Shown: positions 29,955-50,295 of the stretch, piece by piece
Numbering within the stretch: the stretch's first letter is position 1
How the letters are laid out: the number at the start of each line of letters is the position of its first letter
Assembly (NCBI GenBank): GCA_938015455.1
Contig: CALLPL010000018.1
Coordinates: forward strand, 1-64,000
Source: an uncultured Candidatus Altimarinota bacterium
GTDB lineage: Bacteria > Patescibacteriota > Gracilibacteria > BD1-5 > UBA6164
Length of the DNA: 64,000 bases
Reading direction: 5' to 3'
Program-made: the position numbers and the translations under genes
Notes under the pieces: model-generated
What the model saw: only the letters and a program-made list of their open reading frames with translations
Told to the model about the DNA's origin: nothing
Database searches by the model: none

Positions 29955-30029
29955 GAGATAAAGTATTTGAAATATAAGATATTTTCCTACACTAACCTAT
30001 ATTATATTTTTTGACGAGTTTTTTCAACT

Positions 30030-32117
30030 ATGGATATCAAAAAACAGATATTAGACGCATTACAGAATCCTGATTTTCCAGATTTAAAGTTTTTATATTC
30101 CCCTGAAGTACTCGCTGTTTCAGAAGAGATATTATGAGAGTTATTAGTAGAAGAGCAGGAGGATTTTCAGAAAAAACTTAAAATTCCAGATGAAGATATT
30201 TCTTTTGAGACTTTTGAGGATTTCTCGATATTAGACTACTTTTTTTGACTTCTTGAGCATTATCAATGAGTCAATAATGATGAAGTAATCCGCAAGATAA
30301 TTGAAAATTTTGAACCAAAGTATATAGACTTCTCTAATGAGGTTGCGTACTCAAAGAGATATTATGAAATGCTCAAGTATTGTTTTCAAAATGGCAGCTT
30401 AGATGCAGAGCAAAAACGTATTATGGAAAAGTCGGTAGAAGTCTATGAGATTCGTGGTATCGCACTTGCAGAAGCAGAGCAGGCGAAGTTAAAGAAAATC
30501 AATAAAGATCTCTCAGAGCTCGGACAGAATTTTTGAAATAATGTGCTTGATAGCCAGAAAGAGTTTGAGTATATGATCTCGAATGAAGATATTATCTCTG
30601 AAATGCCAGATGATGATAAACTAGTAGCTAAGAAAAAAGCAGAAGAAAAGAAGAGAGAGTGATATCTCTTTGATGCCTCACAGAGTGCATATGCTGCGAT
30701 TATGAAATATTGTAGTGATAAATCAATAAGAGCATACTTCTATACAGCACGGAATCTCTTCGCTACAGAAGAGTGAAGGAATAATAAAACAGTGATTCTT
30801 AAAATATTAGAGCTAAAAAATGAGAAAGCAAAGCTCCTAGGTTTTCCAAACTATGCAGAGCTCTCGCTCCACTTTAAAATGGCCGAGACTCCTGATCAAA
30901 TTATAGATCTATTTGGTGAGATATCAGAAAAAGCGAGACCAAAGGCCCAGGCAGAACTTAATGAAATTAGAGAGTATTTTAATCTTCAGGAATTAGTAGT
31001 CTCAGATCTGTCCTACTACGCGAGGAAACTGAGAGAAGAAAAATATGCTTTGGATGATAAGGAACTTAAAAAGTACTTTGAGTTCGAGAAAGTGCTTGAA
31101 TGAATGTTTGAGATAGTAAAGAGACTTTACGGGATTGAGATAAAGAAGATACAACCTCACCCTAACCCTCTCCTTAAGGAGAGGGAACAAACTTCAGAGC
31201 CTCTCTCTCCTTGAGGAGAGAGAATTCAAGAGTGAGGTTTTGTGTGAGAAGGGTCTATTTTTGACGACATCCAAGTTTATGAAGTCTCCCGAAACGGAAA
31301 ATTTCTTTCATATTTCTTTACAGATTTCTTTTATAGACCTTTTAAGCGTCAATGAGCATGGGCAAATATTCTCAGAGAGAACTTTAGGGGTAATAAAAAA
31401 ATAGTCCTCAATGTATGTAACTTCCAAAAATGAGCCGATGGAACAACACTTCTGACACTCTGAGACGTTGAAACCATGTTCCATGAATTTGGACATGCAA
31501 CGCATGAGATGCTTTCTCGCTCTGAGCACTCTGAGCTTTCAGGTTTTCACGTAGAGTGGGACTTTGTAGAACTTCCAAGTCAACTCCTTGAAAACTGGTG
31601 TCGTGACCCGGAGGGGATGAAGATTTTTGCGTCGCATTACCAGACCTGAGAGCCAGTACCAGAGGATATACTCCAGAAGCTTGAGCAATTAGATACCTTT
31701 GGAAGTGGGCAATTCGTCATCAAACAAAACGAATATGCAATGATGGATATGAGCTTACACACTGGGATAATTCCAAGCTCCGAATCGGAACTCGATACTC
31801 ATGTTCAAAAAAATTATCTTAAAAATTCCCTCTTTCCACTCAGTGAAGTATATAATCCACATACAAGTTTTTCTCACATATTTGATGGTGGGTATGCTGC
31901 AGGGTATTATAGCTATATGTGGGCCGAGATAATCGAAAAAGAGGTCTGGAGAGCCTTCAAGGATAGTGGAGATATATTTTCTCCAGAGGTTTCAAAGAAG
32001 TTTCATGACACTATTCTTTCACAAGGAACCACAAAAAAAGCCTCCGAACTTTTCAGAGACTTTTTTAATAGAGATGTTGAGATAGATGCGTTTTTGAGCG
32101 AGAAGGGACTTATATAA
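30030..32117 (+). CDS. M3-family (thimet/PepF-type) oligopeptidase with a repeat insertion
   Basis: 695 residues. Zinc site HEFGHATHEM at about residue 485-494, third ligand in DFVELPSQ, and the substrate-binding FDGGYAAGYYSYMWAE near residue 630 mark the M3 oligopeptidase/Dcp group. It degrades short peptides in the cytosol. Residues about 375-403 (QPHPNPLLKEREQ...) are coded by an 88-bp palindromic repeat inserted in frame just before the catalytic domain; family members have no counterpart there. The last 27 codons are duplicated at 32613-32695. Confidence 0.9.
31153..31240 (+). repeat. 88-bp palindromic repeat inserted in frame in the peptidase gene
   Basis: Begins AACCTCAC and ends GTGAGGTT, with two internal palindromes: CCCTCTCCTTAAGGAGAGGG (31166-31185) and CTCTCTCCT-TG-AGGAGAGAG (31203-31222), separated by a 17-base spacer. 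The right half (about 31198-31240) matches, nearly base for base and in opposite orientation, the end of the DUF559 element at 48981-49020. It adds about 29 codons with no stop in the gene's frame. I read it as a non-autonomous copy of that element. Confidence 0.8.
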
Positions 32118-47993: not shown

Positions 47994-48539
47994 TTAGACT
48001 TTCATTATCTCTGATTCTTTTCTCTTTGCAGCCTCATCAATGGTCTTGTTATGTTCATCAACAAGTTTTTGTAGATCACCTTCGATGTCTCTCGCTCAGT
48101 CCTCACTGAGAGTTTTATCAGTTTCTTGCTTTTTAATCTGTTTTACAAAATCTCCTCGAACATTTCTCACAGAGACTTTTGCTTCTTCTGCAAACTTTTT
48201 CACGACTTTACACATCTCAGTTCTTCGCTCCTGAGTAAGCTGAGGTACTTTGATAAGTACTGAGTCAGCTTGTGCTTGAGGGTTGAGACCGATTCCTGCA
48301 TCAGTTATCGCTTTTGCAATAGGATGAATTAGAGCCTTATCCCAAGGAGCAATTGAAAGAGTTTGTGGATCAAGAATATTGAGAGAAGCAGAATTCTTGA
48401 GTGGTTGCATACTCCCGTATTGCTCTATCATCACATCCTCTACGAGTGCTGGAGTTGCTCGCCCCATTTGGAGTTTTCCAAATTCCCCTTCTAGGTGATG
48501 AAGCGCTTTTTCTAATTGTTGTTTTGCTTGATCTAGCAT
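47994..48539 (-). CDS. frr: Ribosome recycling factor
   Basis: 181 residues. LEGEFGKLQMGRATPALVEDVMIEQYGS, SLNILDPQTLSIAPWDKALIHPI, and VSVRNVRGDFVKQIKKQE are the standard RRF blocks. With EF-G it splits post-termination ribosomes. TGA codes the Gly in LSEDGARDIEGDL. The next gene upstream, 113 bases away, is the interrupted NMN adenylyltransferase. Confidence 0.95.
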
Positions 48540-48651
48540 TTTCTAAAAATTATATATAAAAATATGTCGAGATTATAGAGGGTTAGAGAGAAAAAGCAAG
48601 AAAAGTTTTTAACTCTATCTTGAATCTTTTCCTTTATGTAAGGGAAAAGAA

Positions 48652-49620
48652 CTACAAAATACTATCTAGTTTTTTGAAAGTTTCTTTTCAGAGAGATTTT
48701 TTCAGACTCCCAATATCATTCTGTTCTAGATCCTTACGAACCTGTGTTCATGAGATAGGAAGTTCTTTTCTGTCTATTTCTATTATATGAAGGGTAAATG
48801 GAAGAGTATCTTCTAGTTTCTTGAGAACCTGAATAGCGTAATCATTTTCTGTATCACCACAATATATATAGCAATCACTTACTCGCTCTGGAATGTGTAA
48901 AAGTATATGAGCTACCCAATCAGAGTCTTCAGGAAAGTCAGGGAGAGCTGCAATAGAGAGACTTCATTGGTCTATTTTACAAACCTCACTCTTGAATTCT
49001 CTCTCCTTAAGGAGAGAGAGGCTTTGTAACTCTTGTTCGAGCTTAGAATATATCTGTTTGGGCGAGTAATTCTCTAGTGAGCTATTTGCTAAGCGAACTA
49101 CATGTATTCCATGGGACTCAATTATGTCATCACGAATCATGTCATATTCTTTTTGTCTTTCATGAATTACTCCATCTAATTCGATTACTACTTTTTTTTC
49201 ATCACAATAAAAATCTGCTATATATCTTCAGATCGCATGTTGTCTTCGGAATTTTAAATTATGAAACTTTCTATTTCTTACAAGATGCCAAAGCACCTCT
49301 TCGTGAGGTGTCTGGGTGTATCTGAGTTTCTTTGAGAGAATTTTTACATATTCTGGGACTTGATTGTATAAATACCTCATATTTTTACCCTCCTCTCCTT
49401 GAGGAGAGGAGATTCAGAGGTGAGGTTGCGTCTTAGGAAACTCTCAGAGAATAAACTCTTTTCTCTGCACATAGCTATAAGGATTTTTTTCGTCTTTATT
49501 TTCACTAGAGCCTATCAAAACAAGAGTAGCAGGATTTTCATTGAGCGATTTTTCAATCAGGAGTATATGCCCCCTATGCAGTGGCTGAAAGCGTCAGATA
49601 ATAAGTCAAAGAGATATCAT
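48652..49620 (-). CDS. NMN adenylyltransferase interrupted in frame by a DUF559 endonuclease-like ORF
   Basis: 322 residues in one frame. Residues 1-64 are the N-terminal half of a NadM-type nucleotidyltransferase: GLIIGRFQPLHRGHILLIE (GRFQPxHxGH), LVLIGSSENKDEKNPYSYVQRKEFI. Residues about 81-200 are a DUF559/Vsr-like endonuclease: TPHEEVLWHLVRNRKFHNLKFRRQ, YIADFYCDEKKVVIELDG, HVVRL. Residues 214-322 resume the NadM fold: LPDFPEDSDWVAHILL and ISGTQVRKDL (ISGTxxR). The host enzyme makes NAD from NMN and ATP. Whether it still folds as one chain, or the endonuclease is made separately from ATG 49380, is unknown. Confidence 0.8.
48981..49020 (-). repeat. Right inverted end of the DUF559 element
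   Basis: Contains CTCTCTCCTTAAGGAGAGAG (48999-49018), a 20-base perfect palindrome, after AAACCTCACTCTTGAATT. Over about 40 bases it matches the reverse complement of the right half of the repeat at 31198-31240 with one clear difference (TTAA versus TTGA in the loop). Confidence 0.75.
49388..49427 (-). repeat. Left inverted end of the DUF559 element
   Basis: CTCCTCTCCT-TG-AGGAGAGGAG (49390-49411) followed by ATTCAGAGGTGAGGTTG. Same layout as the other end but more diverged. Translated in frame as QPHLGISSPQGEEG within the host protein. Confidence 0.7.
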
Positions 49621-49701
49621 TTTTAAAGTATTTTAGAGTTGATTTCTGAGTATTATACTTATAATTCAGAAGATTTTAAATCTTATAAATATAATTTTCC
49701 G

Positions 49702-50295
49702 ATGGCAAATATTAAGCATAAACCAAGTAAATATATGTTAAATCTTCTTCATGTACTCCCACCATTTGTAGAGGGAGAAGAAGAAAATAATCTCATTAAT
49801 ACTCTTGTAGAAATTAATCCTGGAACGATTAATAAATATGAGTTTATTACAGAAACAGGTACTTTGAAATTAGATAGAGTTGGTTATTCATCGCTCGCTT
49901 ATAATTTTGCCTACTGAGCAATCCCATGTACTTGGGATGAAGATGATGATATGCTAGATGTCGTTATTCCACTCGTAACAGAACCATTTGTGCCTGGGTC
50001 ACTGGTAGAACTCAGAGTTATAGGAGTGATTAAATTTATAGATGGAGGTGAGGTCGATGATAAGATCGTTGCAGTAGTAAATGATGACAAGAGACAAGAC
50101 CACATAACCCATATGGATCAATTAGGAGACCACTGGAAGAAAGAAACAGAGCACTACCTCAATATGTATAAGCATCTCAAGAAACCTTGAACGTGTGAAG
50201 TAAAATGATTCTTCGGAGTAGAAGAAGCTCTCAAAACTATCGAAGAATGTAAGGAACGTTATGAAAAGGAATACCTGCCAAAATTTGAAGATTAA
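49702..50295 (+). CDS. ppa: Inorganic pyrophosphatase
   Basis: 197 residues from ATG 49702. NTLVEINPGTINKYEFITETGTLKLDRVGYSSLAYNFAYGAIPCTWDEDDDMLDVVIPL has all family I PPase elements, including the metal-binding DxDDxLD stretch, and VVNDDKRQDHITH continues it. It hydrolyses pyrophosphate to pull biosynthetic reactions forward. An in-frame TTG at 49639 would add 21 residues; ATG is preferred because it gives a typical N-terminus. First gene of a pair with the Nudix gene. Confidence 0.92.

Follow-up and report, generated by a model that had tools for sequence, protein, structure and literature searches.

In-frame insertion of a DUF559 nuclease gene with palindromic ends in the NadM gene of a Gracilibacteria genome, and related insertions in other core genes

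The nadM-like NMN adenylyltransferase gene of the Candidatus Altimarinota genome studied here is split in frame by a 446-bp insertion that contains a DUF559 nuclease gene between inverted palindromic repeats. The same architecture is found in many genomes and in other host genes. The most likely explanation, which we hold with good confidence, is an autonomous mobile element, consisting of a DUF559 gene between inverted ends with a head and a hairpin each, together with non-autonomous partners, with movement that would be driven by the nuclease. The window is the whole stretch of 64,000 nucleotides that was analysed; it is part of a draft genome of 1.33 Mb in 48 contigs, which requires genetic code 25 (TGA=Gly) for its reading and whose named close matches are Gracilibacteria.

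The nadM gene (48652-49620, minus strand, 322 aa) is a single open frame of 322 codons only when TGA is read as glycine; eight TGA codons are found inside it, and with table 11 the same stretch breaks into short ORFs. Provided that code 25 is used, the arrangement described in the initial annotation, two NadM halves around an in-frame DUF559 protein, is confirmed. The N-terminal segment (49429-49620, minus strand, residues 1-64) and the C-terminal segment with the stop codon (48652-48963, minus strand, residues about 220-322, SLSIAALPD...ISGTQVR) carry the motifs GRFQPLHRGH and ISGTQVR, both intact and one on each side of DUF559. The insertion separates FPKT from SLSIAALPD; relatives have FPDE-SLTIG or YPDK-CISIS at this place. 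Fold comparison of residues 2-322 gave NadM/NMNAT matches with Z 18-20 and an intact nucleotidyltransferase fold; the best match quoted (2qjo_B, Z 20.1, rmsd 2.0, 159 residues) recovers the NadM fold over the whole chain. An AF2 model from a 14-sequence alignment has a pLDDT of about 90 in the NadM halves, 60-75 in DUF559 and largely below 50 in the repeat-encoded linkers, and the model from the single sequence has 42. The initial annotation had seen no intein splice motifs, which agrees with a Pfam scan of the protein in which no Hint-family domain was found at E <= 1. No group I or II intron family was found by an Rfam search of 48400-49800 at E <= 0.1.

The element itself (48982-49427, minus strand) is absent from the NadM of seven congeners. 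The inverted palindromic repeats proposed to bound it are real: they are 35 nt each, 80% complementary and with a hairpin in each (CTCTCCTTAAGGAGAG, CTCTCCTTGAGGAGAG). The left repeat (AACCTCACCTCTGAATCTCCTCTCCTCAAGGAGAG) lies at 49393-49427 (minus strand, hairpin at 49390-49411) and the right repeat at 48982-49016 (minus strand, hairpin at 48998-49019), and both are matched (49382-49427 and 48982-49027, respectively) by R1, a head-plus-hairpin model built from 18 sequences. The inverted repeat score of the locus is 14, exactly at the class threshold of at least 14. The size first given, about 450 bp, holds for the element between the repeats, but the coding sequence added to nadM amounts to about 465 nt (155 aa; 48964-49428), with about 18 nt beyond the element, between its end and the resumed NadM (48964-48981, minus strand), for which a target duplication and filler are candidate origins. 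The DUF559 domain (49069-49344, minus strand, residues 93-184) matches Pfam PF04480 with E 2.3e-30 and 105.1 bits, the cut-off being 20.6, and is a Vsr-like PD-(D/E)XK nuclease. It resembles 3hrl, an endonuclease-like protein of Neisseria (phmmer E 7.5e-12). The residues D48, E59, D61 and H65 of the domain (D...ExD...H) are invariant in 16 sequences, including that of the window, and the nuclease is probably active. An ATG at 49380, after GGAGAGGAGGG in the left repeat, makes internal initiation possible. A solitary half-element of head and hairpin (48610-48657, plus strand, R1 E 4e-13) overlaps the 3' end of nadM. The right end (48982-49020, minus strand) also gave a weak Rfam match to the whalefall-1 RNA (E 0.0019, below the cut-off), a family that might include such hairpin repeats; this identity was rejected, the match being below the cut-off and with no recurrence above it at other loci. 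PADLOC gave a marginal DpdF match alone.

Uninterrupted NadM is found in the seven congeners and in more than 20 further members of the taxonomic family. The relatives therefore do not all share the interrupted arrangement, and the NadM case is due to insertion, not to an ancient fusion. This supports the proposal of a mobile element tolerated inside a core gene. The same pattern is seen in RecG: 12 genomes have DUF559 in the loop that connects the P-loop helix to motif Ia, while RecG is uninterrupted in about 27 of the 48 family genomes, a sample of MAG assemblies with one genome per species. Within genus g8 the RecG site is empty in three genomes and filled in three, and the structures of the inserts differ among the filled ones. 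At one locus (L043) the left end of an insertion of the L044 type is retained with another element inside, and the RecG of G040 has a DUF559-less copy in the loop that elsewhere holds DUF559. At L053/L282, in the RecG of G025, the right repeat is missing and the downstream part of RecG is in another frame, which can be either a decaying copy or an assembly error. Two other RecG genes (L279 and L284, in G019 and G043) have an unrelated in-frame stretch after DEQHRFGVKQRE that is similar to GNAT acetyltransferases.

PF04480 is present in 33 of the 48 family genomes. When the 300 nt on one side of each DUF559 domain were compared with the 300 nt on the other, inverted repeats with a score of at least 14 were found at 73% of the 83 family loci, which are not fully independent because some are near-identical copies (G039), against 0.9% of 319 shifted controls and none of 249 shuffles. 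About a quarter of the family loci had no detectable flanking repeats in the same comparison. With a score of at least 12 the proportion was 63% in other Patescibacteria against 1.2% in the control, and 58% against 0% in other phyla, including Bacteroidota, Cyanobacteria, Chloroflexi, Pseudomonadota and Planctomycetes. Both the guess that the element may be common in these genomes and the expectation of similar repeats beside other DUF559 genes were borne out. In the typical end, a palindrome of the CTCTCC..GGAGAG type comes after a pyrimidine-rich head. The left and right ends of one element match each other, and the types of end vary between elements; in Adhaeretor the repeat pattern is confined to the element itself. 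In a strict scan for a uniform target-site duplication adjoining the ends, immediate duplications were not in excess. Imperfect direct repeats of greater length are overrepresented, with a score of at least 10 in 14% against 2.4%, and this fits widely spaced nicks. Two of the direct repeats are 16 nt exact (L220) and 27/29 nt (L104). At L220 (2820-3420) the left repeat is found in tandem copies, and the 16-nt repeat lies on either side of the element. In G039 (L068-L076) at least seven near-identical copies of a DUF559 element are located within a larger unit that has inverted repeats (GGCATAATCTAAATTTTGGTGGA) and 8-bp direct repeats. The larger unit looks like an IS-type MITE with a DUF559 element aboard. 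Because the copies ride in this unit, which has 8-bp duplications and inverted repeats of its own, their amplification may stem from another transposase.

The repeats are also found without DUF559. Half-elements matching R1 number 56 in the genome of the window, where a few of the matches are one hairpin counted again on the reverse strand, and 4-53 per congener. Seven of the 14 DUF559 genes of the genus are bracketed by inverted R1 copies on both sides, with a chance of about 4e-5 for each, and R1 pairs about 100 bp long occur without DUF559. About 14 of the 22 copies examined are within long open frames, with DUF559-less copies in metG and, by motif reading, in the genes for RNase R, HflX, a MiaB-like protein and RecQ. 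The M3 peptidase gene of the window (29967-32117, plus strand, Pfam 5.9e-108) has an in-frame copy of this kind, a non-autonomous 87-bp palindromic element (31153-31239, plus strand, R1 match 31194-31239) that congeners lack; its last 39 nt are identical to the right end of the NadM element in 38 of 39 positions. The DUF559-less repeats are read as non-autonomous members of the family because their ends are shared with the DUF559 elements and half of the DUF559 genes of the genus are bracketed. The objection raised in advance, that the repeats elsewhere might be unrelated to DUF559, is thus right only in that repeats without the gene exist.

The numerous copies without DUF559, and the G039 copies, carried along by the larger unit with its 8-bp duplications, would also be expected if the palindromes were an independent family of REP- or RPE-like repeats moved by another enzyme, with DUF559 as cargo or as a nuclease gene that shelters among them. 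This is unlikely, since DUF559 and paired palindromes co-occur in many phyla and since a screen that covered the Y1/RAYT family (PF01797) found no transposase over the cut-off in any of the eight genus genomes, which are incomplete drafts, and one sub-threshold fragment (G014).

In addition to NadM and RecG, the elements are found in frame in MnmA (two genera), TsaD, PriA, RecQ, LeuS, RibE (two genera), Sua5 and an Elp3-like protein, several of these host gene names resting on motif reading, and N-terminal fusions of DUF559 to MiaA and others are also present. In-frame copies were identified by their open frames, and insertions that break the frame are left out of the counts. Three LeuS loci in Bacteroidota are occupied near the editing domain. 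The LeuS of G019 (L082) has a NUDIX domain match (residues 199-319) besides DUF559. The phylogenetic tree of DUF559 groups sequences across host genes, for example RecG of G000 with PriA of G030, RecG of G037 with LeuS of G019, and RecG of G042 with MnmA of G027. Closely related elements in different genes point to transposition rather than to homing to one allele. The substitutions in DUF559 are mainly synonymous (mean pN 0.26, mean pS 0.58), and much of this divergence may predate the insertions.

The initial annotation had compared the insertion in effect with a homing endonuclease. In such a process DUF559 would cut the uninterrupted host allele and recombination would copy the element in. 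It would account for the finding that one and the same RecG loop is occupied in many genera and that MnmA and RibE are occupied in two each, and Vsr-like (EDxHD) homing endonucleases are a known type. The likeness is only partial, however, because the nearest relatives of the RecG inserts reside in PriA, LeuS, RecQ and MnmA, copies that have the same ends but no DUF559 are scattered, and an intein domain was not found in the Pfam scan; we regard homing as improbable, and transposition accounts better for related elements in different genes. That DUF559 was recruited in old functional fusions that gave NadM, RecG and others a further function has hardly any probability left, for although the frames are open and the nuclease domain is conserved, the presence is patchy, empty sites in congeners already contradict it for NadM, the host enzymes are unrelated, and the linkers are repeat-encoded and have low confidence in AF2.

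The structure of the element, the empty sites, the association with repeats, the occurrence in several genes and the predominance of synonymous change are observed; for the autonomous element with non-autonomous partners, we infer that DUF559 cuts the ends and drives the movement. Against this reading stand the lack of a uniform target-site duplication, the family loci with no detectable repeats, the confined pattern in Adhaeretor and the possible role of another transposase in G039. It would most likely nick the hairpin ends, the target or both, and host DNA repair would then complete the copying of the element. Insertions in protein genes would survive where the loop tolerates them, the frame is preserved and no stop codon is introduced. 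In a surviving insertion the hairpin ends would be turned into flexible linkers, and the host protein would gain the nuclease as an additional domain. VsrA, a DUF559 protein of Caulobacter, is needed for the SOS response on removal of a methyltransferase (PMC12907096), and the DUF559 family can therefore act on DNA in cells. On a broader view, to which we give even chances, DUF559 mobilises a widespread class of palindromic elements in many phyla, moving hairpins without DUF559 in trans and adding loops and domains to core proteins.

According to the available part of a review (PMC10969869), the Rickettsia palindromic elements (RPE) are about 150 bp long and many of them lie in frame in unrelated genes. 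The short palindromic copies described here do so as well, a likeness of architecture, but some of them encode a DUF559 nuclease, whereas the same part of that review does not mention a nuclease in RPEs. The REP/REPIN and RAYT systems also have hairpin repeats, often in inverted pairs, around a single nuclease-type gene; the enzyme here is instead a Vsr-like PD-(D/E)XK nuclease, in a genus with no Y1 gene over the cut-off. IS elements and MITEs share the single gene between terminal inverted repeats and the shorter copies with the same ends, but in the present element a transposase domain and a uniform short target duplication were not detected. Vsr-like (EDxHD) homing endonucleases are likewise small, mobile PD-(D/E)XK nucleases resident in host genes; the elements here differ in that one element type is found in several host genes, in their palindromic ends and in the copies without DUF559.

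In E. coli K-12 (L328, 3700-4330) the DUF559 gene ycjD adjoins a palindrome of the same type, with both long palindrome arms on one side of the gene. The median number of sites that match a 51-nt piece of this palindrome is 18 per E. coli genome, and 3362 of 5426 genomes contain most of the ycjD stretch. E. coli was rejected as a source of clean empty sites because other genes replace ycjD where it is absent: in SMS-3-5 and 19AR1321, the two ycjD-less genomes inspected, TetR and efflux genes come after fabI. The reach of the DUF559-driven class may extend to the palindromes beside ycjD, a link that is a lead only.

To our knowledge, the agent that mobilises in-frame palindromic elements like the ones in Rickettsia has been an open question ever since they were discovered, and a candidate enzyme inside some copies of a similar system makes it testable. 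In the open-access literature, searched by title and abstract with subscription journals outside the coverage, no paper was found that links DUF559 with such repeats. The RPE (PMC10969869) is the nearest known kind, and what is new here is the nuclease inside the element. Movement by DUF559 would give a role to a large nuclease family of 'unknown function', and it would explain the odd insertions in RecG, LeuS, MnmA and other proteins. It would also call for caution in annotation, as many of the annotated 'DUF559 fusions' would be insertions.
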